Positions 30,189 to 63,940 of a DNA stretch of 64,000 nucleotides are shown here, in pieces. This DNA comes from Limnomonas spitsbergensis. Its lineage: Eukaryota > Chlorophyta > Chlorophyceae > Chlamydomonadales. Position numbers and translations under genes: made by a program. The notes under the pieces were generated by a model. The model was not told the DNA's origin. It saw only the letters and a list, made by a program, of their open reading frames with translations, and searched no databases. Every line of letters begins with the position of its first letter. The first letter of the stretch is position 1. The stretch lies in contig JAYJMM010000124.1 in NCBI GenBank assembly GCA_037349105.1, positions 778,501 through 842,500 on the forward strand, written 5' to 3'.

Positions 30189-30392
30189 ATGGCCCTGCCT
30201 GCCCTGCGGAGGGGCGTTCCCTCTGCAATTGACCGAGGCCCCATGTTTGACGGTGGATCGCACAGCGATGCCGAACGTGCATTCAAACATTTTTTGGCAC
30301 CTAAGAACTCGGAATTAAACGTCGAGGTGGGGAGGTCGGAGCAGCTGGAAAAGGCAGTGAGCGCTGTCCGAGGTCGACTGGAAAACTACTAG
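30189..30392 (+). CDS. protein-like ORF in right arm, unknown
   Basis: Twin of 29677-29880. Contains MALPALRRGVPSAIDRGPMF, SDAERAFKHFLAP and a helical tail ending RGRLENY. The frame is open upstream of this Met for at least 30 codons. Function unknown. Confidence 0.3.
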   Translation: MALPALRRGVPSAIDRGPMFDGGSHSDAERAFKHFLAPKNSELNVEVGRSEQLEKAVSAVRGRLENY

Positions 30393-30444
30393 GCAGATAG
30401 CAGTTCGACAGGCGCAAGGTGGAATGGACGACAGACAGTGGCAT

Positions 30445-31710: not shown

Positions 31711-33056
31711 GTCATACATGCTGACAGGGCAGCCTTAACACCACTTACACACATGCTTCATGGGATAAGGTGCCTTGATCAGGTTCACTCCAAGCTGGAG
31801 CTCAGGTATGAGGAGAGGTCTAATGCAGAGGCAACAGTGCAGCCCACTCTTACTGCCTCACTCTAACTGTCTCACTCTAAAAATGTGCTGGTTCTCTTAA
31901 AATTTCAGATTGGTAGAGAATTGGTTCTTTGTACTACAAATTAGATATAATAAAATTCAGCCAGTTGCATGCAAACAGCTTAATGTCTAGAGCTAAGTCC
32001 AGTATAAGTCGTTTGATCTCCGTTCCGAACTCCATGTCTGAACTCTATGCGACGAATATTTTGTTTTCATAACTTGCATTGACAGTTCTGGCGGCCATGG
32101 CGCCGTGCCTGAGTGACTCTGTCCAGTGTTTAACTTCTAGGCGTTTCCAAACTCGAATACTGATCTGCTAACATGTTCATGCCAGTCTTACTCAAATCGT
32201 GGAATGCCTGTGTCCCAAGCAGTAGGGCATGCAGCAACATGCTCCCCATGCTGCAGATCGTAACACAGCTGAATTGTAGCTGAAGTCCTATTAAATCAGC
32301 AGCGGCCAACCAACCCAGTGAACGCCACTGTCAAGCCAAGTAGGAAACCAAAGCATTCGAATTACATCAAGCACAGGGAGTGATCGAGCTCTCATGGCAA
32401 AATATCATCCTCCCTTTTTCTTGCCTCACGCTCATGCGTTTGGTTCAGTTGCATAAAACCAAACAGCTACACGTTTCAGTATGCCATGTAAATAATGAAC
32501 CAAACAGCCACATCTCCTCTCATGCATCAATTTATCTTCTGCTGTTTTGCCTGCTTTTCGAGACGGCCATGGTTACTGAGCTAGAGTAAGGCCCTGAGCC
32601 TCAGCCTCCTCGCCCACTCAACATGTCTAGCGGCGACGACACCCTGTTACGCAAGCCTCAGCCGGCGAGACCAGCAACGCGGTGTTATTTTTGTCAGTGG
32701 ATGGGGGGCGGGTGGAGGGGCAAAAACATTACCGGACTGGACCGGATTACAACACAACGAGCGCGCCCGTTGCAACTACTTCCTTTCACGTGGACACGCA
32801 TAATTTATCACTGTGTGCATCAGCATGGTTGAGTGGGTCTCAGGCGGGGGAGGGGACGTGGGCACACGCACCTACCTGTCGAGGGACGTCTGTTATCTTA
32901 ACGGTTGCTGTCGTTGCGTGAATTGTCAGTTTCCCCGGGTTCAAAAGCGAAGCAAGTGGTATTTGTGATGCGCAGCCTAGCCTTATCCCATGGCCTTACT
33001 TATCCCCATTTTCGAGGCGTCCCCTGGCCCATCCCCTGGGTCCCCTGGGTAGGAAT

Positions 33057-33501: not shown

Positions 33502-36500
33502 ATGGACATGTCGCCTCTTTCAGGAGATGCGATGGCCGAGGAAGGAGCTGTAAGGGGCCCCACATCGTCCGTCACTGCCCGTCTAGCTTCTATCCTGGGC
33601 CACAAGCACCCCCGCGAGCACAACCCAGGTTCCCCAGTAGATGGCATAGACGAGGACGACGGGGACTCAGCCGACAGCAGTGAGCAAGTTCTGCCCCGCG
33701 CCAGCAGGGACAGCTATAATGACCATGTGCCAGAGCTCTTCGTCCCGTCGACAGGTGAGGAGGTTGCATGCTAGCAAGCTCAAGGGCACGAAGAGGCCGT
33801 GTCTCCCTCCCGCCCAGCGGTTGCCACCACTTCAACAATCATACCCACGTCACCCCTTCAGCACTCGTCCGGACACCTGCCCCGTGCCAATGAAAGAATT
33901 TCACGGTTCCCTGATATACAGCCGTGGCTTGTCTAAAGCGTCGGAACCCATTCGGAACAACTTCACCCACCCCTCTCCCACCCAAAAACCTGGCAACAAT
34001 GCACATGGCACATGCCACTGATTAGCTCAAGGCATTTTTGCACACATACTGGCCTCAAGCCTGAGGGGGGAGCCTGGTACAGCGATTCCTGTTGCTTGGG
34101 CCCCATCAGCCTGGACGCCCAGCGGCCTGACCAAGGTGGTCCGGGACGCACTGAAATAAAGACAGGCTTGTGTATCTAGCATTCGACCCAGATCCTCGGG
34201 ACTTGTCTGAAGCATTCAGGTCATGCAGAAGGAAAGAAAGAAAGATGACGCATGTTGGCGCATGGGGGATTATGCGTGCGCAACGGGGGGACATGGGTGC
34301 GCATGGGCCATGCGGGGTCATGTGCGCACATGGGCGTTAATGCTCTGAAGGCAGACTCGCCTGTGCCGGAAGGGGCATGGCTTACACCTTTTTAAGAAAT
34401 GTCACATGATGGATAGATAGCATAGATGCTGAGAGTCTAAGCAAAGGAATAGCTGACGGCCATCAGAGGCGCGCGCTCCCTCTGCACCAACATACATTTC
34501 TAAGTACTGTGTGAGGTTCTGGGTTGGCCTTTGGGGTTTTGGCTGCTCTTTGGGGTTTGGGCTGCGCCTTGGGATGAGGGCTGCGCTTTAGGGTGAAGGC
34601 TGCGCTTTGAGGTTTGGGCCTTCACCCTTCACCCTCCACCCTCCACCTCAATCTTTCACCCCAGTGTTTATTTTCTCTGCTACGAGGCCGCCTTCGGGAG
34701 GACACCCTGCAGCCGTCAGAGGCTCGATTGGGACCAAACCAGGACCGGCCCACGTCCGGCAGCCGAAGCAGCATGGCTCGCCACACCTGGGACTTCTGGC
34801 AGGAAGCCGGGCTGTGGCTGACAGGTACCCCAATCACACAAAAATAAACAACTCTGCACCGTCCACCCTCCATTCTCCACCTCTCAGGGGCCAGCCACGT
34901 TGCCGGCCCTCGTCAGACCTTCAGCGAAAGCGGCACCCACCAGCCCCCGGCCAAGATCCACCCCGTGCTGTACGCTTTCCAAATGCCCGAGTCGCCTCAT
35001 GGCTTCGATGAAGATGCCCCCGTCCGCGGCCTCAGCAGCCTGCCTGGCTTCCTCCCCTCCCCCTTGCCGCTGCCTGGGGAGATGGATGCTCCCACGCGGG
35101 TGCGGGCCGGGGGCTTAAAGGCAAAGTCCTCCTTCTTCACGCCCGACGACTTTGACTACGTGGAGGAGCCCTCTGAGAATGGTCTAAAGTGAGAGGGATT
35201 GACAGGGGTCTGGGGGTATAGGGTAAGGGGGTCTAATGGGGGTAGGGGGGAGGCCGGGAGGGGAGGGGAGGGGACTAGACAGGGGTCTGGGGGTATAGGG
35301 TCAGGGGGTCCGAGGGGGGGATCGGGAGGGGAGGAGTGGGGAGGTGAGTAAGAAAGAAAGAAAGCTACGCCCTACTAGGGCGTGGAAGTTAAGGAAACAG
35401 CCGTAGCCACATCCGCGCCGCTACCATCAAATTATCTTGAAGGGGAGGGGAGTAGACAGGAGTGAGGAACATCAGGGTTCTGGGAGTTTAGGATAAGGGG
35501 GCCTGGGAGGGGTTGGGGTGGGGGACCAGCATTGCACGCCATGCATGGCAACTGGCCTGGTGCGCCATGCATGGAGACTTGCATGGTACCTTGCATGTTC
35601 GCTGCACTCCTGTACCACACACCTTTGCGCCATTTTGTAACTCCTGATCGTAGGTTTGTTACTCCTCCTCTTGGTTCATAACCGCCCCTGTGTATCTGAG
35701 CGCAGGGATGGTCCCATGCCCATGCCGGCTGCTGCTGCCAAGGTCATCCCGCCCTCGTGTACTATCTTCATGCCAGACCTGTCCACCAATGGCTACGAGG
35801 ATGTGCTGCATGCGGTGGTGTGGCACGTCGGGCGCATTTTTGGTTTCCAGGCCTTCAACATGAACCCCAGGACCAGTGGCCAGGTGTGTGTGGGGGGGGT
35901 GAATGAACTGATGTTAGGGGGGGGGCGGTCAGATGGATCTCTGCCTACAGGCTTTTGCGGCAAATGACAACAGCGCCGATGCCGGTATTTTAGTCATGGT
36001 TTCACCGTTTATTGCGTTACGGTATGTTGTGTTTTTACAGTTGTGCTTTCACCGTTATGTTATGTTTGAAGTTCTGTTTCCACCGTCGCTGTGAAAACAT
36101 GTCCAGCTGTCACAATGGTACGCAATGATGTACGGTATGCAGCCCGATGGCATGCATGCCGCCCGATGATATGCACGCGGCACCTCTGCCGGCCATGGGC
36201 CCATTTCCACACCCATCCCTAAATCTTACACTCCAAATCCTCGACCCTAAATTCCAACCTGTACCCTCACCCCCCCCCCTCCTCCTGCTTTCAGGTTTCC
36301 AAGGAGTTTGTGCCTGCCACCATCTTCGTGGCCACCGACCACTTTCAAACCTGTAGCCTTGACCCTTATCCCTATCCCCCTCCACATTTCAGGTTTCTAA
36401 GGAGTTTTTGTCTGCAACCATCTTTGTGGCCACCGACCACTTTCAAACCGTTAACCCTTAACCCTTAACCCTTAACCCTTCCACATTTCAGGTTTCCAAG

Positions 36501-39500
36501 GAGTTTGTGCCTGCCACCATCTTCGTGGCCACCGACCACTTGGCCAGCCTGCTTCTGCGCAACGGCTACATCCGACGGGACCAGGGAGAGGACACGGCCA
36601 ATGAGCGCTTTGCTAAGGTGTGTGTGGGGGGGACAGCCGGGTCAGGCACCAGCCGGGTCAGGCAGCAGCCTCATTATGTACATACACAATACATCATGCA
36701 CAACTCCTATTTTGTTTACCCATTCAGTATATTGGTCGCATGGTAGGCTTGGGTTTCCCAAGTCCAAGGCTGACAGATTGAGACTGCACACTCAAACCCT
36801 GAATTGCGTTGAACTCAATATGTCTGGGGACCCTGTTTGAAATCCTAGTATGACAGCATCATCTTTGACCCCCACACTTCTACACTTGGCAGGCCCTGTA
36901 TGAAACGCACAGGGTCTCTTGACCCCTTTCCCACACTTTGACACTTGGCAGGCCCTGTATAAAATGTACAGTACCATCTTTGACCCCTTCCCCACACTTT
37001 GACACTTGGCAAGACCTGTATAAGATGCACAGTATCATCTTTGACCCCTTCTCCACACTTTGACACTTGGCAGGCCCTCTATGAGTTGCACAGTGTCATC
37101 TTCAAGGCATACGAGACAAACTACCTCCCGCTGGTGGGGCTGTCCAGGCGTACCGCCTACGCACAGGTGGGTAGCTGAGAGTAGCTGAAGATGGGTAGCT
37201 CAGAGTAGCTGAATTCACTACCATGCAGGTTGATCTTACATCTGGTGGGAACACGGCTGGTTGAAGGATTTTGGCTGCAATTTTGCAGACTGGCAGCTGA
37301 AGGAATCTGTCAGGTAGCTGGTGGGTAGCTGAAGGGCAGCTGGTCCGCTCCTCTGACTGCCAATGCCAAAGCCCATGAGCATGCATCAGTAATATTTTCA
37401 TGGGAGGTCATTGCCCATGAACTCGAAACCCTTCAACTGAACCCTTCACCTGGACCCTCAACCCCCGAAACCTAGCGCCTCACTCTATTTGAAACTGTCT
37501 ATAAATGAACAGTATAAACACTTTGCCATAAATGAATACCCCAAGCTCCTGAAACCTTCATTTTCTTTGGGCTGCCCCCTAGACTCAAATCCCCGAAGTT
37601 CAACCCTGAACCCTGAACCCCTAGAATCCACACCCTGAACCCTTCACTACCTCTCAGGGCATTCTTCATACCCGTCCCTACCATGACGTCCGCTGCACCA
37701 ACGGGCTGCTGAGCGAGCTGGCGCTCTACTTCCTCATCTACTCGGAGGCCTCATCCATGAGGCACACTCCAGAGCTGTTGTGGTTCCTGTTCTGGTGCGC
37801 GGAAATAGGGAGGAGGCACTGTTTTCTTTTAAATAAGAAAATAAATATATTTCCCTTAGGGAGGGAGGAACTTTTGTGCTACCATGTAGTCAGGGGCCTC
37901 TTCCATGAGACACACACCGGAGCTGTCATGATTCTCCCCTCCCCCCCCACACTGGCCCCCTCAGGACTCTGAATTAAGCAACCTTATGTCTGAAGTGTGG
38001 CAGCACAACCTACTCAGCCCCCTTCACCCCCCTCACCCCTCGCCCTGCTCACCACTCGCCCCCTCTGGACTCTGAACCACAGCAACCAAATGTTTGAAGC
38101 TTGGCAGCGCGACTTGCCCAGCCCCCTTCACCCCTCACCCCTCACCCTCCTCACCCCTCGCCCCCCCTGGACTCTGAATCACAGCAACCACATGGCTGAG
38201 CTGTGGCAGCGTGACTTGCCCAGCCCCCTTCACCTCCCTCACCCCTCGCCCCCTCAGGACTCTGAACCACAGCAACCACATGGCTGAGCTGTGGCAGCAT
38301 GACTTGCCCAGCGCACACCCCAGCCTGCGCCTCAAACACCACGAGCTTCGCAACGAGCACCAGTCCATGATCGCGGAGATGCAGAAGCAGCTCAACCTGC
38401 ACCCCAAGCGCATGCGGCCAGAGGACTGCGGCAGGGTGTCGTCCATCCTGGCACGGCTCAGGAGGGTGCACATGAGCAGCGAAGACAGGTAGATGTGTGT
38501 GTGTGTGTATGCATGGGTTCACATGAGCAGCAAAGACAGGTAGATGTGTGTGTGTGTGTGTGTGTGTGCATGGGTGCACATGAGCAGCAAAGACAGGTAT
38601 GTGTGTGTGTGTCTGTCTGTATCCATGGGTGCATGTGAGCGTGCATTTACAGGTGTGTGTATGCATGCATGCATGCATGTGTGTGCTTATGTATGCATGC
38701 ATGTGTGTGCTGATGCATGTATGCATGCATGTGTGTGCTTATGTATGCATGCATGCATGTGTGTGCTTATGCATGCATGCATGTGTGTGCTTATGCATGC
38801 ATGCATGTGTGTGCTTATGTATGCATGCATGTGTGTGCTTATGTATGCATGCATGTGTGTGCTTATGTATGCATGCATGTGTGTGCTTATGCATGCATGC
38901 ATGTGTGTGCTTATGCATGCATGCATGTGTGTGCATGTACAGATGGGTTTATGATTGTGTGTGCTTATGTGTAACTGTTGCCATGCATGACTGCCGCCCT
39001 TGTGTCAATAGCATGCACGGCAGCTTTCATGCATATCATTTGTGGGAAGTGTGAATGGTGTGGAATGTGTCGCACCGTTGCTTTCATGCACAACACTTAT
39101 GTGTGACACAGTTATATCTAATTGATAGAAAAACTGGCATGCACAACACTTATGTGTACCCAGTTGCTGACATGGAACAGTCTAACTCACACGCAACATT
39201 GTAACTGAAATGTTACACTATAATTGATACACAACACCTTCACTGTTGCACGAAAGGTACATTGTTGCGGAGCTTGTTGCATTTGGCGACGGTGGCTTTT
39301 TCGTCGACCGCATTATTGCGCCCATCTTCTCCGTCATGTCGTACGAGGTGCGTGACAGGAAGTAGCTGTGAGGGTATTGCTGATCTAGGGGTGGTGGTGG
39401 TTCGGGGGCTCTAAGAAGGCAAGGAAGTTACGCCCTACTAGAGCGTAGAGGTTCAGGAAACAGCGCAGCTTGGGGCCGTAGCCACATCTGCGCCGTTACC

Positions 39501-42500
39501 ATGATGCAAAAAGAAAGAAGCAAGTACTTCCTCACGGCGGTTACCACTTATATGGGGTCTAGATGATCTTCTAGGAACATCAAGGATGTCACAGCCACCA
39601 TATGTATGCAACCTCCCTCACGTCCTCTCCAGAAGTAACATCTGTCTGTAACCGTCCATGCCAATTGTAACCCCTGCTTGTAACCCCCACAGATCGACCA
39701 CCTGTCCAATCTGGGTGTGGACCCTGCGCACCGCATTGGCTACTGCGATTTTAACGAGTCGCTGTGCAACCGGGACATCGTGCATGACACCATCAGGGCA
39801 CTCGGGGTAGGTTGCGACATGGTAACGGACGTAAGTGTATAGCATAAGATGGTATCGGCACTGGAGGGTCATGTGTGACCGGGACATCGTGCCCACCTGT
39901 CTGCTGATCCCCTCCTCTCCCCACTGCCCACCTGTCTGGTGACCGTGACATCGTGCATGACACCGTCAGAATACGGGTGGGGTAGGTCAAAACATGATGA
40001 GGGCCAGCGGGGCAGGTCATGATTTGATATCATTGTGAAGGATTGATGACTTAGGGGGCAGAGCATTTGGACATTGTGCACGACACCATGAGGACATGTG
40101 GGGTAGGCCATGACATGATATGATGTTTTAAAGGATGGCAATGGGGGTTTGGGTGCCACCGTGTACGATGTCGTCAAGGCCCCAGCGGTAGGTTGAAAGA
40201 GGATGTTTGTGTACCGTAAAGGATAAACGCGCCATAATCCTGTCAAGGGCGTCATAATCTACATGCGACATTATAAAGCTGTTTTCCTTCTCATTTCCAA
40301 CTCCCTTAACCTTAAACCCTGCACCTGCACCCTGAACCCTTAACCCTGTGCCTCAAGTGATCAAGACCTGGAGGTGTGCCCTGAATAACGCCTACCCCTC
40401 TTAACCCTCAACCCTCAACCCTGCATCCTGAACCCTAAAACCTGCACCTCAGGTGACATCTCACGATCTGGAGGAGCATGCCCCATATGATGCCTGAAGG
40501 CTGTAAGCCCTCAACTTGATAGCTAGTCAGAAGCTGCTAGGTGGTGCGTACATCAACCCTGAACCCTAAAACCTGAACCCTAAAACCTGAACCCTAAAAC
40601 CTGAACCCTGCATCCTGAAACCCCAAACCCTGTACCTCAGGTGACCACCCACGACCTGGAGGAGCGCGCCCCGAATGACGCCTACCATCGGATGACCAAC
40701 CTCGGCTATGCTAAACACTCGCTCTCCAATTTCGACGCCCTGGTCAGTTCATAATGTTACTGGTGCAGCGTCACTACGGTGTGGTAGGATGAGTACCGGG
40801 GTATGCTCCCACACTTACTAGTGCTACCACACCGTAGTTAGTGTGGTAGCATGAGTACATACTCTACCTGTCTATGTATTTGAACGCAGCTGTCTGATGA
40901 TAGCTCCCTTCATCGAAGCTGGACAGTATCAGTGTAACTAAGGTGTGATCGCGTAATTGTCACAGGGTGACTCTCCGTTGTAGACCTTGAGTGCTTGAGC
41001 GTTACTACCGGAAGCGATACTTACGGTATTGGGGCGTCACTTAGACAGTGTAACTACGGTATGGTAGCATCACTGTTGCGGTTTGTACTACGGGGTGATA
41101 ACATAACTCTCGCAGGGTAACTCCATGCATTAGAACGCGGATTCTCTCTTTGCATATGTGGCCAGTGACTTCTCCCGCACCAGGTTGTTTGTCAGAACGG
41201 TGCTCCTGATGCTCCTTGTTTGTGCTGGTGGCCAGTCACATCTACCAATGACCGCCTCCCCCCCCCCCTCCTGCCAACTCACCCCTGGTGTTCTGTCTAT
41301 GTGTAGGTGGCCAGTGACTTCTACCGCACCAAGGTGTTCGTCAAGACGTACCGTGAGCGGCGCTCCTGGGCTGCGGTGTACCGCGCGTACTACAGAGTCT
41401 TCTCCTTCCACCTGGTGCTGTTCCACCTCATCCAGGTGAGGTGTGAGGAAGTGTTGAAATAGTGCAAGAAAGAGTGCCTTGGGCTGCGGTGTACCGCGCG
41501 TACTACAGAGTCTCCTCCTTCCACCTGGGGCTGTTCCACCTCATCCAGGTCAGATGTGAGGAGGTGTTTAAATGTGTGAGGAAGAGTGTCATGTGCTGTA
41601 GTATGCCATGTGTACTGCATAGTCTTCTCCTTCCTCCTCACACTGTTGAGGTGTATGGTGTTAATAAGTGTGAATATAGCCAACCCCACTCTCATGTCTC
41701 CCTTTTTTTCCCCTCCCGCTCCGCTCCCTTGCCCCCACACTTATGTAGGTGTATGCCTTTGAGGGGTGGGACTGGCGTTGGCTGTCGTCCATCATTCTGA
41801 CCATGTCCTGGTGCAAGGCCCTGGAGCGCATCAGCAACTGGTAAGGGGGCGTCCAGACAAGTGTGGATGTTGAATCAGCAGGGGAAAGGGGTGCGAGGCA
41901 CTTGGACGTATCAGCATGGGGTGTGGGGGACATTCACACAACGCCTGCATGTGTGGATGCAGACTCGTTCACACAAAACCAGCATGTATGGATGCTGACT
42001 CGTTCACACAAGACTTACATGCATGGATGCTGACTCGCTTACACAAAATCTACATGTATGGATGCTGACTCGTTCGCACAAACAAGCATGTATGGATGCT
42101 GACTCGTTCACACAAAACCTGCATGTATGGACGCTGACTCGTCCACACAAAAATAGAAAGGAAAGGCCATCCCCAAAGAAAGGAAGATCGAAGAATCCCC
42201 AGCCCGTCCAGATCCTAGCCATCATCAAAAAAAAAAGAAACGTACCAGGCAGACTGACGTGCTAAGTGTGCACTGTGATCTGCACTGCTTTCTTTCACCT
42301 TTACTGCCATTGACTGTACTGCCGTTGTGCTGCCACTGCTGTACTTCAGGTTCATGTGCCAGGAGCTGGATGAGCCGCTGTCCACCACACTCAGCAAAGT
42401 GTTCAGCAGCAAGTGAGAGATCGCGGTTTAGTTTCACAAGCGATGGGTAGTCAGGCCGGTGTCAGGGTTTAGAGACTGTTTTTGTTTAAGGTTCATGAGT

Positions 42501-45500
42501 GAGGGTGCAACGGTAGCCAGGCCAGGGTCAGGGTTTCGGAACTGTTTCTGTTTCGGGTTTAGGGTTCATGACTCACATACCAATACACCATAGCTAAGTT
42601 CATAGGTATAAAAATATTATACGGGTACAGTCAGCCCTAATCATGATCGGGGGCTCAATCATAGCCAGGCCAGTTCCCGGGTTTAGGGGTAGTTTCTGCT
42701 TATATTTTAGGGTTCTGGGACTGGTTCTGCCTAATGTTAAGGGTTCAGGGTGAAGAATATGGTCTGTCTAACGATTAGGGTTAAGGCTCAAGGGAATGTC
42801 TCTGTCCAACGGTGAGGGCTCAGGGTTTAGGGTTTTGGTACTATTTCTGACCAGGATTGAGACAATGGGATCTGTTTCTGTTTTAAATTTAGGTCTCAGA
42901 ATTTATGGCTTAGGGACGGTTTAGGGTTGAGGATTTATGGCTTGGGGACCGTTTCCGCTGAACGTTGTCCTATCACCTGGCGTGGCTTGTGGAAAAAATC
43001 GCCGTGCATTTAATGGGCGCTACCAATTGAATCCCGGTGATCTGCAATGTGGAGAACGAGAACAAAATGTGCTTTAAGGTCTGCATCAACGGTGTGGCTT
43101 GCTGTGATGGCTGCTGTCGGAGCCCTACCTGCACGCCCTATAACCTTCATCAGCCTCAGCCCAAACCTGCAAGATCTGAACCCTCTCACCTTCTTCAGAC
43201 TCAACCCAGAAGCCTGAATCCGGAAATCATAACTTTGTCACCTTCCTCAGGCTCAGCCCAGAAGTCTCAACCCTGCAATGGCCCCTGCAGGAAGAAGAAG
43301 CTGATGACCACGGGCAACATGTGGGCGACCATGAACTTCGAGGCGCAGGGTGGTGTGAACGCCAACAACAAAGGTAAAAGGCAAGATCGGGAACCTCATG
43401 GTATTTACCTCTACTGGCACAAAGCTAGGAAAAGGATAGGAAAGCAGGTGTGAACGCCAACGAAGGTTTTGTAGGATCGGGGACCTCATACTATTACCCC
43501 ATCTGGCACCGACCTATGAGGGTCACAATGAAGTTGAAAGCGCAGGGTGGTGTGAACGCCAACAACGGTAAAAGGTGGTATCAGGAACCTCATAGTATTA
43601 TCCCTTTTCGCACCAACCTTGAAAAAGGGTTAAAAAGCAGGACGGTGTGAACGCCACCAAAGGCAAAGCCGGGGTCAGGAGCAGTGAACCTTTCTCGCAC
43701 CAACCTAAGGGGGCGACGATGAACTTCGAAGCGCAGGGTGGTGTGAACGCCAACAAAGGTACAGCTCTAGGCGGCTCTTCGTTATGCATAGGGCAGGTGC
43801 AAGGGTCGCTCTATTCTTAACTCGTACACAATAAATCATTATACAATATAGCTACCCCGTTCCCCTCTTGGGGCAGGAGAGTTCAGGAGGTTAGGCTACT
43901 GGGGGCTCCCTGCTGGGTTTGAACCTAGGTTGGGATTGGTAGCTGTCTAGGCGGGATTTACAAATTTAAAAGATGCAAATCAGCACTGCTATGTCTTTTC
44001 CGCGTGGCAGCTGCGGGATGGGGGGGCTGCAGAGAGCCTAAGCTGAGCAATGCGCGTTTTAATTCGAATTTAAATTTAAAATCAACAGCTGGCGTTGAGA
44101 CTGCAAGCGGAGCAGCCAAACACCACATGCTTGATTCGACGCAGATCAGAAAAATCAAAGAGCAGGCCGCAGTGCCACCGAGGTATTTTTGAATTACAGG
44201 CCAAGGCGACAAGAAGGGCAACGAGGCCAAGAGGTAGCTAAAGCGTAGCTGAAACTGTGGCAGAAATGTAGCCGAAGCTGTGGCTGAAAGTTGTCAAAAC
44301 TATGGCTGAACCACGGAAAATCAATCGCTGACTTTGCAGGCCACAGCTCCATAGCCAATCGCCCCCATATCCCCCATTGAGTTGCAGGCCCAGGTGACAG
44401 GAATGGCAACGAGGCCTACGCGTACGCTTTTGCCGCCGAGAGGTTCCAGGAGCGTCGCAAGCATGTGATCGAGGGCACGCCGAAGAGCATGTTCTTCAGC
44501 TTCCTCATCTGGGTGCTCATCGCCATGCTGGCGACTGCTTGGTGAGGTTTCAACCCTGGAAAGTGATACCCGAAACCTGAAATCTGAAACGTATCCCCTG
44601 AAACCTGAAACCCCTTCACCGTGTGGCCTTCAGCACATCCCCTACAATATTTTTAAAATTCTTCAGGGTGGGTTTCGACGAACCTGCTGCCAGCAGCTAA
44701 ACGAAATACCACATCCTGGGTGAGGTTCAAAGGTTCGAACCCTATGCCCTGTGATAGAGGGCGTATCCCCCAAACTCATTTCCAAATGTTTTGCATGGAT
44801 GTGCACGAAACCTGCTGCCAACAGCTTTGTAAGGCAACGCACCTCATAACCCTCTCCCATCGCCCCATGCCCCCCTCCCCCCCTCAAGGTTTATCACCAT
44901 GTTTATGTAAGGCCGATTACGAACATAGCCCATGTCTGGTGATGTGTCCTCTGCACCTGGCCCTGCCCTCTTTAGTCTTTACCACCTGGTCCCTGACCCT
45001 CTCCCATCGCCCCAGGCCCTCCTCCCTTAAGGCTTATCACCATGTATATGATCGGTCCGATTAAGGAACTTGCTTGCATCTTGTGACCTCTCCTATCACC
45101 GTGCTCCCCCCCCCCTCCCTCCCCCGGCACCTGGCCCTGAACCCTTTGCTCCCTGGTCCCTGATCCTCCCCCCCTCCCCCCATGCCCCCCTCCCCCCATG
45201 CCCCCCTCCCTCCCCCCTGTAGGTTCATCGCCATGTATGTGTATGGGCCAATCAAGGACGCGGCCCAAGCCTGGTGGTGGATCTTCTGCACCTGCTACGT
45301 TGGCGTGTACGTGATCCACTTCTTGGTCACCACCCGGGATGGATACATCGTCTCCTTTATGTCCATGATGAACATGCCGGAGTTCATGCGGGGGCACGGC
45401 AACTTCTCAGATCCAACCTGCTGGATCTACCAGCCTCAGGTATGCTCTTAGATCCAACCTGCTGGATCTGCCAGCCTCTGGTGTGCCTCACAGATCCTAC

Positions 45501-54500: not shown

Positions 54501-57500
54501 TTACACCCCCCTCATATTATTTAGGTGGGCTGGCAGCCTGATGTTACACCCCCTCATATTATTTAGGTGGGCTGGCAGCCTGATATTACACCCCCCTCAT
54601 ATTATTTAGGTGGGCTGGCAGCCTGATATTACACCCCCTCATATTATTTAGGTGGGCTGGCAGCCTGATATTACACCCCCCTCATATTATTTAGGTGGGC
54701 TGGCAGCCTGATATTACACCCCCCTCATATTATTTAGGTGGGCTGGCAGCCTGATGTTACACCCCCCTCATATTATTTAGGTGGGCTGGCAGCCTGATAT
54801 TACACCCCCTCATATTATTTAGGTGGGCTGGCAGCCTGATGTTAAACCCCCTCATATTATTTAGGTGGGCTGGCAGCCTGATGTTACACCCCCTCATACT
54901 ATTTAGGTGGGCTGGCAGCCTGATATTACACCCCCTCATATTATTTAGGTGGGCTGGCAGCCTGATATTACACCCCCCTCATATTATTTAGGTGGGCTGG
55001 CAGCCTGATGTTACACCCCCCTCATATTATTTAGGTGGGCTGGCAGCCTGATATTACACCCCCCTCATATTATTTAGGTGGGCTGGCAGCCTGATATTAC
55101 AACCCCTCATATTATTTAGGTGGGCTGGCAGCCTGATGTTACGCCCCCTCATATTATTTAGGTGGGCTGGCAGCCTGATGTTACACCCCCTCATATTATT
55201 TAGGTGGGCTGGCAGCCTGATGTTACACCCCCCTCATATTATTTAGGTGGGCTGGCAGCCTGATGTTACACCCCCCTCATATTATTTAGGTGGGCTGGCA
55301 GCCTGATATTACAACTCCTCATATTATTTAGGTGGGCTTACAGCCTGATGTTACACCCCCCTTATATTATTTAGGTGGGCTGGCAGCCTGATATTACACC
55401 CCCCTCATATTATTTAGGTGGGCTGGCAGCCTGATGTTACACCCCCCTCATATTATTTAGGTGGGCTGGCAGCCTGATATTACAACCCCTCATATTATTT
55501 AGGTGGGCTTACAGCCTGATGTTACACCCCCCTTATATTATTTAGGTGGGCTGGCAGCCTGATATTACACCCCCTCATATTATTTAGGTGGGCTGGCAGC
55601 CTGATATTACACCCCCTCATATTATTTAGGTGGGCTGGCAGCCTGATATTACACCCCCTCATAATATTTAGGTGGGCTGGTAGCCTGATATTACACCCCC
55701 CTCATATTATTTAGGTGGGCTGGCAGCCTGATATTACACCCCCCTCATATTATTTAGGTGGGCTGGCAGCCTGATATTACACCCCCCTCATATTATTTAG
55801 GTGGGCTGGCAGCCTGATGTTACACCCCCCTCATATTATTTAGGTGGGCTGGCAGCCTGATGTTACACCCCCCTCATATTATTTAGGTGGGCTGGCAGCC
55901 TGATATTACACCCCCTCATATTATTTAGGTGGGCTGGCAGCCTGATGTTACACCCCCCTCATATTATTTAGGTGGGCTGGCAGCCTGATATTACACCCCC
56001 CTCATATTATTTAGGTGGGCTGGCAGCCTGATATTACACCCCCCTCATATTATTTAGGTGGGCTGGCAGCCTGATATTACACCCCCCTCATATTATTTAG
56101 GTGGGCTGGCAGCCTGATATTACACCCCCTCGTATTATTTAGGTGGGCTGGCAGCCTGATGTTACACCCCCCTCATATTATTTAGGTGGGCTGGCAGCCT
56201 GATATTACACCCCCTCATATTATTTAGGTGGGCTGGCAGCCTGATGTTAAACCCCCTCATATTATTTAGGTGGGCTGGCAGCCTGATGTTACACCCCCCT
56301 CATATTATTTAGGTGGGCTGGCAGCCTGATATTACACCCCCCTCATATTATTTAGGTGGGCTGGCAGCCTGATGTTACACCCCTCATATTATTTAGGTGG
56401 GCTGGCAGCCTGATATTACACCCCCCTCATATTATTTAGGTGGGCTGGCAGCCTGATATTACACCCCCCTCATATTATTTAGGTGGGCTGGCAGCCTGAT
56501 GTTACACCCCCCTCATATTATTTAGGTGGGCTGGCAGCCTGATATTACAACTCCTCATATTATTTAGGTGGGCTGGCAGCCTGATATTACACCCCCCTCA
56601 TATTATTTAGGTGGGCTGGCAGCCTGATATTACACCCCCCTCATATTATTTAGGTCGGCTGGCAGCCTGATGTTACACCCCCCTCATATTATTTAGGTGG
56701 GCTGGCAGCCTGATATTACACCCCCCTCATATTATTTAGGTGGGCTGGCAGCCTGATGTTACACCCCCCTCATATTATTTAGGTGGGCTGGCAGCCTGAA
56801 ATTACACCCCCCTCATATTATTTAGGTGGGCTGGCAGCCTGATGTTACACCCCCCTCATATTATTTAGGTGGGCTGGCAGCCTGATATTACACCCCCTCA
56901 TATTATTTAGGTGGGCTGGCAGCCTGATGTTACACCCCCCTCATATTATTTAGGTGGGCTGGCAGCCTGATATTACGCCCCCTCATATTATTTAGGTGGG
57001 CTGGCAGCCTGATGTTACACCCCCTCATATTATTTAGGTGGGCTTACAGCCTGATGTTACACCCCCCTCATATTATTTAGGTGGGCTGGCAGCCTGATAT
57101 TACACCCCCCTCATATTATTTAGGTGGGCTGACAGCCTGATATTACAACCCCTCATATTATTTAGGTGGGCTGGCAGCCTGATGTTACGCCCCCTCATAT
57201 TATTTAGGTGGGCTGGCAGCCTGATGTTACACCCCCTCATATTATTTAGGTGGGCTTACAGCCTGATGTTACACCCCCCTCATATTATTTAGGTGGGCTG
57301 GCAGCCTGATGTTACACCCCCCTCATATTATTTAGGTGGGCTGGCAGCCTGATATTACAACCCCTCATATTATTTAGGTGGGCTGGCAGCCTGATGTTAC
57401 ACCCCCCTCATATTATTTAGGTGGGCTGGCAGCCTGATATTACACCCCCTCATATTATTTAGGTGGGCTGGCAGCCTGATATTACACCCCCTCATATTAT

Positions 57501-60500
57501 TTAGGTGGGCTGGCAGCCTGATATTACACCCCCTCATAATATTTAGGTGGGCTGGTAGCCTGATATTACACCCCCCTCATATTATTTAGGTGGGCTGGCA
57601 GCCTGATATTACACCCCCCTCATATTATTTAGGTGGGCTGGCAGCCTGATATTACACCCCCCTCATATTATTTAGGTGGGCTGGCAGCCTGATGTTACAC
57701 CCCCCTCATATTATTTAGGTGGGCTGGCAGCCTGATATTACACCCCCCTCATATTATTTAGGTGGGCTGGCAGCCTGATATTACACCCCCCTCATATTAT
57801 TTAGGTGGGCTGGCAGCCTGATATTACACCCCCCTCATATTATTTAGGTGGGCTGGCAGCCTGATGTTTCCCGTCGGGAGCAATGCCAAGAAGGAGGTTT
57901 CTTCAGCCGAGCAGATGACAGAGCAATATCAGGTGGGACCTGGGACTGATTGTAGATGTGGGGCTTTGCTGGGCTTAGGGACTGTGCTTGGGGACTGGGC
58001 TTGGGTGCTGGGCCTGGCACTGGATGTCGATGTTTGACATCCCTGGATTAAGGCACTGGGCTGAGGGACTGGGCCTGGGTACTGGGCTTGGGTGCTGGAT
58101 GAAGGCACTGGGCGGAATCTAACTGCCAATTTCAGGTGGGGCCTGTGACCTGGGACTGGATTGTGAAGGAGACGGGGCTTCGTTCAAGGGCTTGGATACT
58201 GGATTAAAGCTCTGGGAGGCATTGTAACTTTTGTGGGGATCTGGGACTGGATTTCGATGGAAATTGGGCTTGGGCACTGGCCTTTGATACTTGGCAGGAC
58301 TGCAACTCCTAATGTCAGGTGGAGGTCTGGAACCTGATGCTAGATTTCACTGTATGGCGTTGCTGTGCTTAGGGAGTGGGTCTGGGTGCTAGGCTTGGTA
58401 ACCAAGCCTGGGCACTGCGAGAGCATTGCAACTCCCAATATCAGGGGTGGACCTGGAACCTGGAGCTAATTTTCGATGTTTTGGCGTTGCCGGTTTAGGG
58501 CCCTGAGCCTAGGTGTTAAGTTTAGGGTACTAAGCCTAGGCACTGGGCTTGGACTGCAGGCTTGAACGCTGAGCCTGGGCTCAGGGCTTGGGCGGTAAGC
58601 CTGGGTATTGGGCAGGGATTGCCACTCCCGATGTCCCAACCTTAGGCGGCCCACAAAGCAGTATTAGCCTCCGTTGCATATGGATCCAAATCAATGCCTA
58701 CCTCTGCCGCCTCCCCCCTTGTGAATCCCTGTGATCTTATGTCATTCACACCTTGCAGTCCCGACCTCTAATTATATTGGATCCCATGTTTGAACAGGTC
58801 TGGATGTACCCCGTGTTTTGTTCTGCCCTGTAAGCTCCCTATTCCTCCTCATCCCTCTTCCCTCCTCCCTCCGCCCTCCAGAGGATGGCCGCCTTGAGGC
58901 AGAAGAAGAAGGAGGATGCGGCAGCGGCTGGCGGCAGGGACAAGTCCAGGGAGGGGTCCGTACGTAGGCAAGAAGAGATTGAGGTGAGTTCTGAACACCG
59001 ATAGCGGTAACCTTTACCCTTAACCCTCGTCTGAAACATCTTGTTTTGCCCATCTGAATATCGCTGTGTTCACACTGCAAGGCCACACTTCCCAACTGCA
59101 ATGTATGCCAGCTATGCCCATTCACACTCCATGGTCACACTTTGCATGTGTACTTCTGTTTGTACGGTCTGTCCACAGAACATGTCCACACTGTATAGCC
59201 ACATGACCTTTTTGCATGGCCTGTTCACACAACCTGCTCACAGTGCATGGTCACAGTACATTAGGGCCCAAAACTCACTCGATTAGTTCCAAGCGCGAAA
59301 TGTCCACACCTCCTGCTTGAACTGCCTGGCCCCTCATACAAAGGCTGGTGGGTGGTTGTATGGACGTCGTCAACACAACTCTGTCGTTAGCCTGCGTATC
59401 CTACTTAATGCCTCCCGATCGCTTCCTCCCCCCTGCCCCTGGGTGATCAGAATGCTGCCCATCGGAAGGTTCTTTCAAACACTGTCCGCAAGCCGGATTC
59501 GTATTCGAGAAGCCACCTGCTGCCCTTGACCAATGTGGGTAGACAAGTTCAGGGTGTAGGGTTCAGGGCAGGCACCTCCTGCCCCTGACCAATGTAGGTA
59601 TAAGGGTCTAGGGTGTAGGATTTAGGGCAGCCACCTGCTGCCCTTGACCTATGTGGGTATAATAGTATAGGGTGTAGGGTTTAGGACAGCCACCTGCTGC
59701 CCTTGACCAATGTGGGTATAATGGTCTAGGGTGTAGGGTTTAGGACAGCCACCTGCTGCCCTTGACCCAGGTGGGTATAAGGGTATAGGGTGTAGGGTTT
59801 AGGACAGCCACCTCCTGCCCTTGACCAATGTGGGTATAATGGTCTAGGGTGTAGGGTTTAGGACAGCCACCTGCTGCCCTTGACCCAGGTGGGTATAAGG
59901 GTATAGGGTGTAGGGTTTAGGACAGCCACCTGCTGCCCTTGACCAATGTGGGTATAATGGTCTAGGGTGTAGGGTTTAGGACAGCCACCTGCTGCCCTTG
60001 ACCCAGGTGGGTATAAGGGTCTAGGGTGAAGGGTTTAGGACAGCCACCTCCTGCCCTTGACCAATGTGGGTATAAGGGTATAGGGTGTAGGGTTTAGGAC
60101 AGCCACCTGCTGCCCTTGACCAATGTGGATATAAGGGTCTAGGGTGTAAGGTTTAGGACAGCCACCTGCTGCCCTTGACCCAGGTGGGTATAAGGGTTTA
60201 GGGTGTAGACAACCACCTGTGGCCCTTGACCAATGTGGCTATAAGGGTGTAGGGTTTAGGGCAGGCCCTCACCATGGTGGGTGTTCATTCACCGATGTTC
60301 ACCAAGCATCATGTTATGCAAACATAAAAACCAGCGTTCAAACATCTTAGCTTTTGTGACACATGAAACTCGAATTCGAGCAGCCACCTGCTGCCCTTGA
60401 TCTTGGTGGGTGGGTATATTCAACGATGTTCGATAAGCATCCTGTTCAATGTGGATCACGAATCAGGAAACAATCATTTAAACTTTCATGAGACACTAAC

Positions 60501-63500
60501 AAGCATCACTGCCTCTAGTGGGCAAGAGGCACATGAATCATGATGCATTTATCGCTATCAGGAAACATAAAGCATACAACATTGTAAGGAAACATGACGC
60601 AAGGAGGGCAAGCAGGAGACCTGCATGGTAGCTTTCATTAACCATGGAACAGGATTTAGGAAAGCAGGCAGGAAACATCAAGCATAACATGTTATCAGGA
60701 AACATGAAGCATGAATCATTATCAGGAAACATGCATTACAGCTTTAACAAGCCATGAAACAGGTTGTGTCTCCTAGTATCCCCAACCTACAGTGCATTTA
60801 CTTTGAACCCTCGCTCCCCACCCTGCTGCTGGGCCTTCAGTCCTCTCCCGCGCTCGGCGTTGGCAGCCCGGATGGGGAGGCTGGCGAGCCCACACTGGGA
60901 GCCTTCGCTAAGATGAGGAAATTCCTGACCAGCGCCAAGGCCCACAAGGAGCCCGTCGCAGACCAAACGGTGAGGCACAACCTTAACCCCAAGGCCCCAA
61001 GCCATATGCCCCAACCCTAAATCCTGAGCCCTTAACACTCAACCTGAGACCCTAGACTTAAACCTTGAACCCCGAACCCTGAGCCCTTCAGCGTTAAACC
61101 TAAACCTTACACCCTGAAGGGCACTGCCACTCTGAACCCAAGACAGTAGCCCAACACATTTGCCTTAAGCCCCTGAGCCATCTATGTAATCATGGCAATG
61201 TGCCGCACCAGCATCAATTTTCAACCATAAATTAAGTTTAAAAGCTGCATACGGGCATGTGCTCTTAAGGCCCAGGCTATGGCCCTAAACCCCAACCTTA
61301 AGCCCTTGGTGCTAAGGCCCCAATACCTGGGCTTGTTATGAATGAAATAGTCCCTATGTCCAGGGACCCTGGGCTTCTTTTTGCCATCCCTTGCTTGATT
61401 TGTAGGTCTAAACTCCCTCCTTTGTGTGCGGACCAGCGACAAAACCCTAGGCGCCAAGGCTTAAAGCCCTAGGAAGCTATTGTGAACGAAACATTCCCTC
61501 TGTCCCAGGACTCAGTCCGTTTGTGTCATCCCTTGCTTGATTCATCTGTCCCAAAATCCCTTCTTTGTGTACAGGCCAGCAACAAAACCCCCGCTCGGGC
61601 TGTTGGCGAGGCGACCGCATCTCGCATCGAAGTCTGTCCACCTCCCCCGCCGCTGTCCGCCCCGCCCGCGCCGCCCTCTGCGCCGCCACCCCCTAGGGAC
61701 AGCTATGCTGGGAACGAGGATGAACAGGTCAGTGGGGGCTGCCTTCACGCCCATGACCACCCGTAACCAGGCAGGAAACACGAGTTGACTGACAGTCCTA
61801 GACCCTCACTGTACCCTGATATCCACCCTCAACCCTGAATACGTCAAGAATCTGCATTTGTCTAAAACCTGAATGTGTCTCAACCCTGAAAACCGAACCC
61901 TTTTCAGGTCATGGAAACTGCCCAGGAACCTGATTATGTGTAAAACCTGAATAGGTCTCAACTCTGAATATGTCAGAAACCTGAAAACCGTATGTCTGAA
62001 CCCTGGATATGTCTGAACCCTGAATATGTCTGAACCCTGAATATGTCTGAACCTTGAATATGTCTGAACCTTGAATATGTCTGAACCTTGAATATGTCTG
62101 AACCTTGAATATGTCTGAACCTTGAATATGTCTGAACCTTGAATATGTCTGAACCCTGAATATGTCTGAACCCTGAATATGTCTGAACCTTGAATATGTC
62201 TGAACCCTGAATATGTCTGAACCCTGAATATGTCTGAACCTGGAATATGTCTGAACCTTGAATATGTCTGAACCCTGAATATGTCTGAACCTGGAATATG
62301 TCTGAACCTGGAATATGTCTGAACCTTGAATATGTCTGAGCCCTGAATATGTCTGAACCTTGAATATGTCTGAACCCTGAATATGTCTGAACCTTGAATA
62401 TGTCTGAACCCTGAATATGTCTGAACCCTGAATATGTCTGAACCTTGAAACCCCTTTCCAGATTATGGATACTGCTCAGGAGCATGCCGACTGGGAGCAC
62501 CCGTCCGCCCACAGATCTGCATCAGCGCACATCGGCCCCCGTGGATCTGAATCCGAATCCACCTCCAGTCAGCGGGGATCTGGATCTGGATCCAGGAGGG
62601 GCTTGTCTTCGGTCCTTGCCGCTTCCTCACGCCGCAGGGCTGAGATCCAGGAGGGCGGCCTGCGCGAGGTGCTTGAGGAGGGGCAGACAGAAGAAGAGGG
62701 TCTAGCACAGGACCAGGCGGAGGTGGGTGATGTCAGCCAGGTGGATGCTAGAAGAGGGACAGAAGAGGGTATAGCGCAGGACCAGGCGGAGGTGGGTGAT
62801 TTCAGCCGGGTGGATGCTGGAAGAGGGACAGAAGAGGGTCTAGCACAGGACCAGGTGGAGGTGGGTGATGTCAGCCAGGTGGATGCCGGAAGAGGGGCAG
62901 ACAGAAGAGGGTCTAGCACAGGACCAGGCGGAGGTGGGTGATTTCAGCCAGGTGGATGCTGGAAGAGGGGCAGACAGAAGAGGGTCTAGCACAGGACCAG
63001 GCGGAGGTGGGTGATTTTAGCCAGGTGAATGCTGGAAGAGGGGCAGACAGAAGAGGGTCTAGCACAGGACCAGGCGGAGGTGGGTGATTCCAGCCAGGTG
63101 GATGCTGGAAGAGGGGCAGACAGAAGGGGGTCTAGCACAGGACCAGGCGGAGGTGGGTGATGGCAGCCAGGTGGATGCCGGAAGGGGCAGACAGAAGGGG
63201 GTCTAGCACAGGACCAGGCGAAGGTGGGTGATGGCAGCCAGGTGGATGCCGGAAGGGGCAGACAGAAGGGGGTCTAGCACAGGACCAGGCGGAGGTGGGT
63301 GATGGCAGCCAGGTAGATGCCGGAAGGGGCAGACAGAAGGGGGTCTAGCACAGGACCAGGCGGAGGTGGGTGATGGCAGCCAGGTAGATGCTGGAGGGGA
63401 GGAAGATGAAGGTAGATATGTCCTAGTGTGGGGATAAAAGGAGCGGATCCCATTTGGTCCTGTGAAGATGATGGCAGGAAGGTAGCTCAGTGACAACCCA

Positions 63501-63940
63501 AAGTCTGCTGAAGGAACCATAATCTGACATGCAGCAGGGATGTTATAGTTTTATGATCTACTTCAGGAACAGTCTGTGCACAAGAATTGTACACTGGGAA
63601 AAAAACGGATGAGCGTTTCATTTCCTTTCAGGTAGAGCTCAATTTGTGTGATGGAAACAAAAATTGGCAATGCCATTTTTTTTTGAGAACCAGCTCAATG
63701 TGCACACAGACGAAACAAACATGCCTGGCCTGAGAGTGTCAATTTTCTGTCTTTCAGGACCAACTCCATGTGTATCAGAACGAAGCCTTCAGCAACCAAG
63801 AGCTCAGCCACGTCCAGGTTCTAACCATCAACCCCGGCGGAGGAGAGGAGTATGCCGGAGGGCAGCAGGACGGAGGCGAGGTTGAGGCTGACCTGGACCT
63901 CACGTTCGGCAGGCCCAACTTGTCGGTGCTCGAGGTGCAG
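33502..63940 (+). CDS. GSL: 1,3-beta-glucan (callose) synthase, N-terminal 1464 codons
   Basis: Membrane-embedded enzyme that polymerises UDP-glucose into callose at the plasma membrane. Thirty-two exons join with continuous phase from ATG 33502 to 63940, and the gene runs on past the window. Family hallmarks: LALYFLIYSEASSMRHTPEL (about 335-354) corresponds to the FKS1-domain motif of plant callose synthases. RERRSWAAVYRAYYRVFSFH (about 557-576) corresponds to the RS...R.FDRMW.F segment before the first membrane helix. LFWWDVLFWVLVL, CKPCVIPLK and IFPYILIFFMDTSLFYQ match the end of the first membrane cluster. The C-terminal glucan-synthase catalytic domain and second membrane cluster are not in the window. 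By residue 1464 plant homologues would already be inside the catalytic domain, so this protein carries a long extra linker. No other gene is interleaved. Confidence 0.93.
34340..34660. repeat. gcgcatggg and gggtttgggctgcg short repeats in GSL intron 1
   Basis: Around 34240-34335 gcgcatgggg/catgggcg words recur. At 34520-34620 units of ttggggtttgggctgcgc repeat about six times. Nothing else in this intron except family B. Confidence 0.6.
34664..34815 (+). repeat. dispersed repeat family B, copy 3 (GSL intron 1)
   Basis: gtgtttattttctctgctac, gattgggaccaaaccaggac, cagccgaagcagcatggctc. More diverged than copies 1 and 2. Confidence 0.55.
35348..35427 (+). repeat. family A copy in GSL intron 2
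   Basis: aagaaagaaagaaagctacg, ccctactagggcg hairpin, gttaaggaaacagccgtagc, cacatccgcgccgctacc. Confidence 0.75.
36293..36491 (+). repeat. two echoes of GSL exon 4 start
   Basis: Before the true exon (36492), tttcag followed by gtttccaaggagtttgtgcc and a gccaccgaccac tail occurs at about 36294-36355. It occurs again, more mutated (gtttctaaggagtttttgtc), at about 36393-36450. Each copy spans about 50 bp of exon and is followed by aacccttaaccc-like tracts. Confidence 0.88.
36862..37073 (+). repeat. three echoes of GSL exon 5 start
   Basis: A unit of about 61 bp (cccacactttgacacttggc, ag, gccctgtatgaaacgcaca) repeats at 36893, 36952 and about 37012. The genuine exon at 37074 is the last copy. 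Confidence 0.88.
37886..38257 (+). repeat. echoes of GSL exon 6 end and exon 7 start
   Basis: At 37886-37935 is a diverged copy of the exon 6 tail (gcctcttccatgagacacac). At 37965, 38068 and 38169 are copies of the exon 7 start (gactctgaaccacagcaacc). The true copy at 38258 is the last. The exon 6 echo sits after its exon and the exon 7 echoes sit before theirs, which is the general rule. Confidence 0.85.
38480..38960 (+). repeat. tgtg/gcatgcatgc tandem array after GSL exon 7
   Basis: Starts with two further copies of the exon 7 donor edge (catgagcagcaaagacaggt at about 38521 and 38580). It then becomes about 11 units of gcatgcatgtgtgtgcttat. Spurious ORFs in all frames. Confidence 0.88.
39413..39505 (+). 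repeat. family A copy in GSL intron 8
   Basis: ggcaaggaagttacgcccta, ctagagcgtag, gttcaggaaacagcgcagct, gccacatctgcgccgttacc. Confidence 0.7.
39876..40195 (+). repeat. four echoes of GSL exon 9 end and donor
   Basis: Copies of the tail gaccgggacatcgtgcatga with the donor-side gggtaggt at about 39876, 39944, 40072 and 40157, progressively mutated. Confidence 0.82.
40280..40640 (+). repeat. ccctaaaac telomere-like tract with exon 10 echoes
   Basis: Units of ctgaaccctaaaac. At about 40350 and 40450 are echoes of exon 10 start (tcaagacctggaggtg; tctcacgatctggaggagca). Confidence 0.82.
41156..41580 (+). repeat. echoes flanking GSL exon 11
   Basis: A diverged copy of the exon start (gtggccagtgacttctcccg) at 41158 precedes the exon. 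A copy of its second half (gctgcggtgtaccgcgcgta) with donor follows at 41480-41555, and a third, more decayed one near 41590-41645. Confidence 0.88.
41940..42150 (+). repeat. about 36-bp tandem repeat, six copies
   Basis: Units of gcatgtatggatgctgactc and gttcacacaaaacc. In GSL intron 12. Confidence 0.9.
42430..42965 (+). repeat. gggtttagg-rich intronic tract
   Basis: Degenerate telomere-like words (agggtttaggg, gttcaggg) spread over GSL intron 13. No ORF. Confidence 0.7.
43435..43765 (+). repeat. echoes of GSL exon 14 end and donor
   Basis: Copies of gcgcagggtggtgtgaacgc then caacaaaggta at about 43445, 43540, 43645 and 43735. Each ends in a donor-like aaggt. The true donor is 43373/43374. 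Confidence 0.88.
46258..46905 (+). repeat. echo of GSL exon 18 and about 63-bp array
   Basis: A decayed exon 18 copy lies at 46415-46465 (cgtcccctacatccgcatct). From 46560 about six units of gcatggatccagatctgtat, ttagatctaggtcaggcagg and caagcacagtcggtgtaa follow. The array motif resembles the intron start just after the donor (gatctaaatgcggatctgga). Confidence 0.82.
47251..47660 (+). repeat. echoes of GSL exon 19 end
   Basis: Units of tgatttgaatacacaaacgc and cagggcaggcgagggggcat recur, each copying the donor edge (gccaggtgaggcgagg). A longer exon copy at 47577-47650 (gcctgggcgtgctgcctggc, then tgggaggatat) matches exon 19, 47185-47250. Confidence 0.85.
47748..48900 (+). repeat. 13-bp minisatellite, about 88 copies
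   Basis: Units tatcatcaggggg and tatcaccaggggg. The array starts right at tctcaggtatcacc. With a period of 13 it is open in several frames (GGIIRGYHQGVSS peptides), an artefact. It lies in GSL intron 19. Confidence 0.97.
49260..49720 (+). repeat. about 115-bp array: exon 20 end plus donor, four copies
   Basis: Each unit has ccctgatggggactcgaccg, atgatgatgacagggacgga and gcacgcaggtgggggtt, i.e. the last 55 bp of exon 20 and its donor. Intronic ggtttcagggtttggggcta sequence follows. Copies at about 49280, 49390, 49500 and 49610, then more decayed ones near 49830 and 49920. Confidence 0.93.
50394..50680 (+). repeat. ccctaaaccctatactc telomere-like tract
   Basis: Degenerate units of tcaaccctaaaccctatact in GSL intron 21. 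Confidence 0.85.
50805..51386 (+). repeat. echoes of GSL exon 22 start and ccctgacctg array
   Basis: Acceptor-plus-exon copies (ccag then ggtgagcagggtgtccacgt; ggcgagcttaatgtccacgt; ggtgatgagctagatgtcca) at about 50806, 50938 and 51004. They are followed by about 27 units of the 10-mer ccctgacctg/ccctgaccta (51105-51380). The true exon starts at 51387. Confidence 0.88.
51977..52450 (+). repeat. echoes of GSL exon 23 end and about 64-bp array
   Basis: The tail caacggggatgggtgagaga recurs as caaccagcatgggtgagaga near 52063 and ccaaccagacgggtgagggg near 52446. In between are units of gaagaagatccgcagggttt and agggtgagagaggtcgacac. Confidence 0.8.
53230..53480 (+). repeat. ccctagatcctagat degenerate repeat
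   Basis: Four blocks of about 63 bp with ctgaaccctagatcctagat and gagcatgaggtggggg. GSL intron 25. Confidence 0.8.
53565..57847 (+). repeat. 43-44-bp minisatellite, about 97 copies of an acceptor-exon edge
   Basis: Each unit reads ctcatattatttag, gtgggctggcagcctgat, then attacacccccc. The first part plus gtgggctggcagcctgat equals the 3' splice site and first 18 bases of GSL exon 26 (57848). The array is the whole of intron 25 from its degenerate left end (53566, 53620) to the exon. If an upstream acceptor were used, translation would run WAGSLILHPPHII and stop at the TAG of the next unit. Confidence 0.96.
57933..58640 (+). repeat. echoes of GSL exon 26 end and donor, about 190-bp units
   Basis: The donor edge atatcaggtgggacctggga recurs as aatttcaggtggggcctgtg (58130), taatgtcaggtggaggtctg (58310) and caatatcaggggtggacctg (58436). 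Between them lie gggcttgggcactggg-type words. Confidence 0.83.
59535..60270 (+). repeat. about 60-bp array: GSL exon 28 end plus donor, about 12 copies
   Basis: Units contain agccacctgctgcccttgac and caatgtgggtataagggtct, then agggtgtagggtttaggac. The first part is the last 28 bases of exon 28 with its donor (aat then gtgggt). Several copies improve the donor to caggtgggt. Confidence 0.95.
61970..62455 (+). repeat. 17-bp minisatellite, about 28 copies
   Basis: Units aatatgtctgaaccttg and aatatgtctgaaccctg, ending just before the exon 31 acceptor (cctttccag). Minus-strand ORF is an artefact. Confidence 0.95.
62723..63410 (+). repeat. 69-73-bp array: GSL exon 31 end plus donor, about 10 copies
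   Basis: Units begin at the donor (gtgggtgatgtcagccaggt), continue ggatgctagaagagggacag and end ggaccaggcggag, identical to the exon end. The first two units (62723-62791, 62792-62860) are exactly 69 nt and stay in frame with exon 31. Later units of about 73 nt break the frame. Confidence 0.95.
63560..63757 (+). repeat. echoes of GSL exon 32 start
   Basis: Before the true exon (63758, gaccaactccatgtgtatca) lie ttcaggaacagtctgtgcac (63564), ttcaggtagagctcaatttg (63628) and gagaaccagctcaatgtgca (63686). Confidence 0.75.

Follow-up and report, generated by a model that had tools for sequence, protein, structure and literature searches.

Why should the introns of a single gene carry copies of the exon borders that flank them? 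The question is raised by a stretch of 64,000 nucleotides (hereafter the window; C124:778501-842500) from the 260-Mb genome, in 124 contigs, of the green alga Limnomonas spitsbergensis. In one gene of this window, diverged or tandem copies of exon edges, referred to here as echoes, lie in the intron beside the genuine edge, acceptor copies upstream of their exon and donor copies downstream, in the orientation of the exon itself. Coordinates are window positions unless a contig or another stretch is named.

The gene is predicted to encode a 1,3-beta-glucan synthase. Its window part, exons 3-32 of the model, occupies 35706-63940 of the forward strand, as indicated by alignment to a paralogue, a partly open frame and the Pfam families PF14288 and PF02364. 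FKS1_dom1 was recognized in the first translated part of the gene (E 2e-9) and the Glucan_synthase domain in the second, beyond the window (E 3.6e-56). Four proteins were matched, from Haematococcus lacustris (two entries, 58%), Sanguina (53%) and Astrephomene (49%). The paralogue lies on contig C108, and homology to it extends past the window end to about C124:882400. A model of 49 exons was built by tblastn of window open reading frames against this paralogue, most splice positions being common to both genes wherever they can be aligned. Spliced exons are free of stops over 35706-50393 and over 68756-84136 (17 exons beyond the window). The model omits one doubtful exon with weak support, located between 33754 and 34888, and exons 22-32 (51387-63940), whose borders come from AG/GT signals and partial paralogue support, are tentative in both borders and frame. 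Exon 18 ends in a GC donor (gcaagt, 46256-46261); the paralogue has GT. An origin of C108 from a different organism was set aside, without proof, and the contig was kept as part of the same genome because it holds a second echo-bearing gene (in stretch L019) and shares 653 bp with the window at 74%. The shared sequence, window 24131-24782 and 754-1373 of the C108 stretch L009, is possibly a repeat element.

All echoes of the window gene lie on the forward strand. On the acceptor side, exon 4 (36492-36617) is preceded by two copies at 36277-36442 that keep AG and match the exon at 56/60 and 45/50 positions, exon 5 (37074-37166) by three at 36872-37041 with a period of about 61 bp, and exon 7 (38258-38488) by three at 37938-38224 (exon parts 49/64, 56/64 and 53/55). 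Alignment further revealed two acceptor echoes of exon 10 (40641-40742) at 40335-40495, echoes of exon 11 (41307-41435) at 41142-41246, one of exon 15 (44388-44541) at 44189-44239, two of exon 16 (45223-45439) at 44867-45067, and one each of exon 20 (49095-49220) at 48947-49009, exon 30 (61575-61727) at 61410-61447 and exon 31 (62462-62722) at 61878-61932. Exon 22 (51387-51465) has acceptor echoes at 50781-50942, one with AG kept and an exon part of 16/20 and a second reaching only 6 bp into the exon, and exon 32 (63758-63940) has one at 63675-63714 (21/27). Before exon 26 (57848-57932), a 43-bp minisatellite fills 53658-57847, and its unit corresponds to the acceptor edge of that exon.

Donor echoes are found in the same gene. 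Exon 6 (37658-37794) has a donor-side copy at 37883-37934 (41/52), exon 7 two copies at 38515-38619 with GT kept (23/25 and 24/25), exon 11 two at 41480-41647 with a period of 113 bp (67/69 and 41/56), exon 18 (46153-46255) two donor-side copies at 46317-46464 (42/59 and 41/46) and exon 24 (52720-52838) a donor-side copy at 52991-53032 (37/43). The donor echoes of exon 23 (51896-51976), at 52040-52484, match at 23/36, 29/43 and 33/43 positions, the exon border being placed from signals only. By alignment, there are also four copies after exon 9 (39693-39806) at 39872-40195, one after exon 12 (41749-41840) at 41890-41941, four after exon 14 (43291-43373) at 43447-43761, copies with a period of about 42 bp after exon 16 at 45465-45548, copies after exon 19 (47144-47250) at 47283-47648, seven after exon 20 at 49276-49965 (period 109), a 59-bp minisatellite after exon 28 (59451-59534) at 59562-60422, and nine copies after exon 31 at 62753-63390 (period 73). 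All 14 exon numbers cited in an earlier note on this DNA recur in this list, provided that both numberings agree.

The association with exon edges was measured against controls. In a strict test, the outermost 40 bp of an exon were aligned with the intron next to them, for 96 edges and 48 introns. A score of at least 20 was reached by 21/96 own edges, 5/96 exon interiors and neither opposite edges nor antisense edges (0/96 each); at a score of at least 15 the counts were 32, 9, 1 and 1 of 96, respectively. A looser rule that includes the intron flank detected echoes at 41/96 own edges, 23 acceptor and 18 donor, compared with 3/96 in antisense and 7/96 in another intron of the same gene; since these controls are not empty, several of the 41 edges may be chance matches, and two (2A and 32D) are weak calls. 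Own-edge matches therefore stand far above the opposite-edge, antisense and other-intron controls, and exceed exon-interior matches, and both acceptor and donor edges are affected. Echoes occur in 35 of 48 introns, 23 of them among the 31 introns of the window (22 if the weak exon 2 call is dropped), and the pattern carries on past the window end, in stretches L010-L012. The presence of exon-edge copies in neighbouring introns, claimed for at least 18 introns, is thereby confirmed, although 'almost every intron' was too strong a wording.

In the paralogue the looser rule gave 2/62 own edges, 1/62 antisense and 3/62 in another intron, that is no echoes above background, and no own edge out of 62 scored at least 15. 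The echo rate appears locus-dependent, because the paralogue has the same exons and belongs to the same assembly. Fifteen further ten-kb stretches (L016-L030) were taken at positions chosen without looking. Pfam-supported genes came from L016, L019, L021, L022 and L030, and a gene-like frame without Pfam support from L017; L018 and L024 held transposon-like frames only, and L020, L023, L025, L026, L027 and L029 nothing usable, these eight being judged by eye without a scan. A kinesin family, PF00225, gave 139 matches. Local duplicate density was 0.15-0.68 in L016-L019, 0.01-0.17 in the paralogue stretches L005-L009, 0.04 in L014 and 0.81 in L015.

On C124, one exon of an alpha/beta hydrolase gene is preceded by about eight acceptor echoes, counted by eye, and the gene has donor echoes as well; in a NAMPT gene on C108 the last coding stretch is copied beyond the stop codon, a single case. 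TPR, amine oxidase and short-chain dehydrogenase genes had no echoes in the edge count. Across 29 edges of 15 exons, from the five Pfam-supported genes and L017, scores of at least 15 were reached by 5 own edges, 1 interior, 1 opposite edge and no antisense edge; for the 25 Pfam-supported edges the numbers are 4, 1, 1 and 0. The echoes in L016, L019 and L017 had been noticed ahead of this count. In these other genes, of which five have Pfam support, the rate is below that of the window gene (5/29 compared with 32/96 at the same score). In L028, about 90 bp, an exon-like stretch among them, are duplicated in tandem at 5430-5600; this copy has no Pfam support and was left out of the count.

These observations are probably best explained by frequent local tandem duplication, which takes little or no account of gene structure and is seen through purifying selection. 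A duplication wholly within an exon would spoil the protein and be lost, and one wholly within an intron would be neutral. A duplication straddling a border would be tolerated if the spliceosome kept the site beside the intact exon, namely the most downstream acceptor or the most upstream donor. The surplus edge would then stay intronic, where it could decay neutrally or be amplified into a minisatellite. Replication slippage or end-joining repair may supply the duplications. Homology and open frames suggest that the outer, exon-proximal splice sites are those used at echo borders, and, as equally good decoys lie nearer to each other across the intron, a choice resembling exon definition would be implied.

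The main alternative is that exon-intron borders are mutational hotspots, where breaks or template switching, associated with transcription, R-loops or exon composition, duplicate border DNA preferentially. Local duplicate density does not set borders apart: over 46 introns it is 0.344 at borders, 0.354 in deep introns, 0.236 at exon edges and 0.162 deeper in exons, and the difference between borders and deep introns is -0.01 (CI -0.10 to 0.08). Because deep-intron coverage counts the echoes themselves too, repeat families were counted instead. Exon-touching families are 36 of 74, against 17.2 expected under uniform placement, and 19 of 28 near-identical families touch exons, against 6.3; this two- to threefold excess speaks for a border process. 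Against it, exon-touching pairs should stay recognizable about twice as long, because selection freezes the exon copy, and a twofold persistence is thus to be expected by reasoning alone. None of the 74 families is confined to the exon flanks examined.

A first simulation, with uniform placement and frozen exons, gave ratios of exon-touching to purely intronic families of 0.34-1.62 over eight runs, a range that includes the low-identity value observed, 0.95. In a larger simulation, uniform placement fell below the observed ratio in 12/12 settings, with 0.42-0.89 against 0.95 for 28-bp loose matches and 0.52-1.03 against 1.83 for 40-bp loose matches, and it was too low for near-identical pairs as well. 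Judged by eye, without a formal fit, the family counts agree better with a border weight of 2-3 than with uniform placement. The ratio of border to deep coverage, observed at 0.96, was 0.67-0.93 under uniform placement and 0.90-1.43 under weight 2, and fits a weight of about 1-2. Family counts and coverage therefore disagree on the size of the excess, leaving a range of 1-3-fold beyond uniform duplication with frozen exons. A border-linked process is unnecessary for the pattern to exist, and the family counts lean to a modest one.

Two further features bear on this alternative. Exon parts are spread over 20-127 bp in 31 strong alignments, with no preferred breakpoint, and the one clear echo that crosses a stop codon counts against a splice-anchored process: such an echo is expected under a selection filter but not from anchoring at splice sites. 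We regard a border-concentrated process as unlikely. The earlier proposal of recurrent short tandem duplication anchored at splice sites stands as to the duplication; the anchoring is putative, drawing some support from the excess of exon-touching families, about twofold of which is expected from frozen exons, and being weakened by the varied exon parts and by equal border and deep-intron densities. The bolder combination, tandem duplication truly two- to threefold concentrated at borders together with an exon-recognizing spliceosome that tolerates exact decoys, is likewise doubtful; if true, it would turn the genome into a natural library of many experiments on splice-site choice.

In the Rogers model, introns arise when an exonic AGGT segment is duplicated in tandem, and the echoes could be what such births have left behind. 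Five introns of the window gene are absent from the paralogue, and in one of them (16-17) the exon tail recurs close to the 3' end, as the model would have it. The other four, however, have no exon-tail copy in their last 200 bp, and none of the five has an exon head in its first 200 bp, which leaves little sign of a new intron bounded by two copies of an AGGT segment. Only 2 of the 35 echo-bearing introns are among those absent from the paralogue, a comparison that is incomplete for the introns between exons 21 and 33, and wherever introns align the paralogue has the echo-bearing introns without their echoes. An origin in intron birth is accordingly very improbable. Intron presence differs between the two gene copies in both directions, with five introns confined to the window gene and at least two to the paralogue, and the pair offers a fair system for studying recent intron gain or loss.

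The sequence of the echoes argues for duplication followed by decay. In 25 of the 31 strong edge alignments the match begins within 5 bp of its own splice edge. In 60 echoes of exons of known phase, mismatch at codon positions 1, 2 and 3 is 0.136, 0.099 and 0.200, and the changes comprise 195 non-synonymous and 99 synonymous codon changes, with 9 stops, and gaps in 32/60. The higher rate at position 3 may reflect synonymous change in the true exon. The nearest echo lies mostly 50-250 bp away (51-246 bp, plus one of 519, at 29 edges), and its spacing is a multiple of 3 at 10/29 edges. AG is intact in 35/46 echoes, compared with 35.5 expected under neutral decay, and GT in 47/60, compared with 41.5; these copies are non-independent, 12/46 AG and 12/60 GT coming from the exon 26 and exon 28 arrays, and 12 at most were counted per edge. 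Given the frameshifts, stops, non-synonymous changes and about neutral loss of AG and GT, the echoes appear to be non-exonic and to decay about neutrally. Old copies decay, as the earlier note proposed; they form a graded series, and their sequence speaks against their being real exons. That the echoes are functional, as alternative or mutually exclusive exons or as decoy splice sites under selection, is hardly credible, since AG or GT is kept in 82/106 copies but at a rate near the neutral expectation, the coding frame is broken, a single strong alignment (1/31) spans 90% of its exon, and the paralogue has no echoes above background.

Some copies have expanded into minisatellites, as had been suggested: 43 bp x 98 before exon 26, built from its acceptor edge, 59 bp x 13 after exon 28 and 73 bp x 10 after exon 31. 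Introner elements consist of one intron sequence at many genome loci. For one intron piece, the beginning of the 43-bp array (53658-53900), a genome-wide DNA search in which very common words were skipped matched only the array itself. Other repeats are present in the window. A 42-bp x 97 minisatellite with 97% matches occupies 3-4088, and a palindrome-like block of nearly 4 kb (28060-31880) contains two 43-bp arrays (28235-29562 and 30507-31705) whose consensus units are, by eye, mutual reverse complements. Degenerate AACCCT/CCCTAAA telomere-like motifs are abundant in the gene introns, e.g. at 40310-40640 and 50400-50650, sometimes immediately 5' of acceptors (by eye).

Near-identical duplicated splice sites at varied distances constitute a natural test of spliceosome choice that requires no engineering. 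Consistent use of the outer sites would support exon definition in a green alga. The echoes also illustrate intron growth and the origin of minisatellites from coding DNA, and the exon-like intron sequence will mislead gene predictors.

How do the echoes compare with known systems? No paper describing the same pattern in green algae was found in open-licence full text. The earlier note knew of no named element or process of this kind, but the amphioxus 'mirage' minisatellites have the same structure, as far as excerpts of two reports describe them (PMC3087553, PMC3902484). In Adh3, the globins BflGb6 and BflGb9, troponin C and PGBD5, tandem copies span borders at 5' and 3' ends, AG/GT is often kept, units measure tens to about 160 bp, and those excerpts report no interference with regular splicing. 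The echoes resemble them in tandem copies across exon-intron borders at both ends, with many AG/GT kept, and their array periods of 43, 59, 73 and 109 bp stand beside a mirage unit range of 10-160 bp. In the portions seen, mirages affect single borders in a handful of genes, with BflGb6 units 81-100% identical, whereas the echoes affect about 40% of the tested borders of one gene, grade from near-identical to decayed, and belong to a green-alga lineage rather than an animal. An excerpt on the potato RdRp gene describes a border-spanning tandem duplication, splice choice among the copies and formation of a new intron (PMC4974935). The duplication of an intron-exon border followed by a choice among copies is common to both cases, as that excerpt presents it, but in the alga, judging by the paralogue, the extra copy mostly ended up in an intron that was already there. 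The lineage, the density within a single gene and a graded decay that allows neutral tests are new here.
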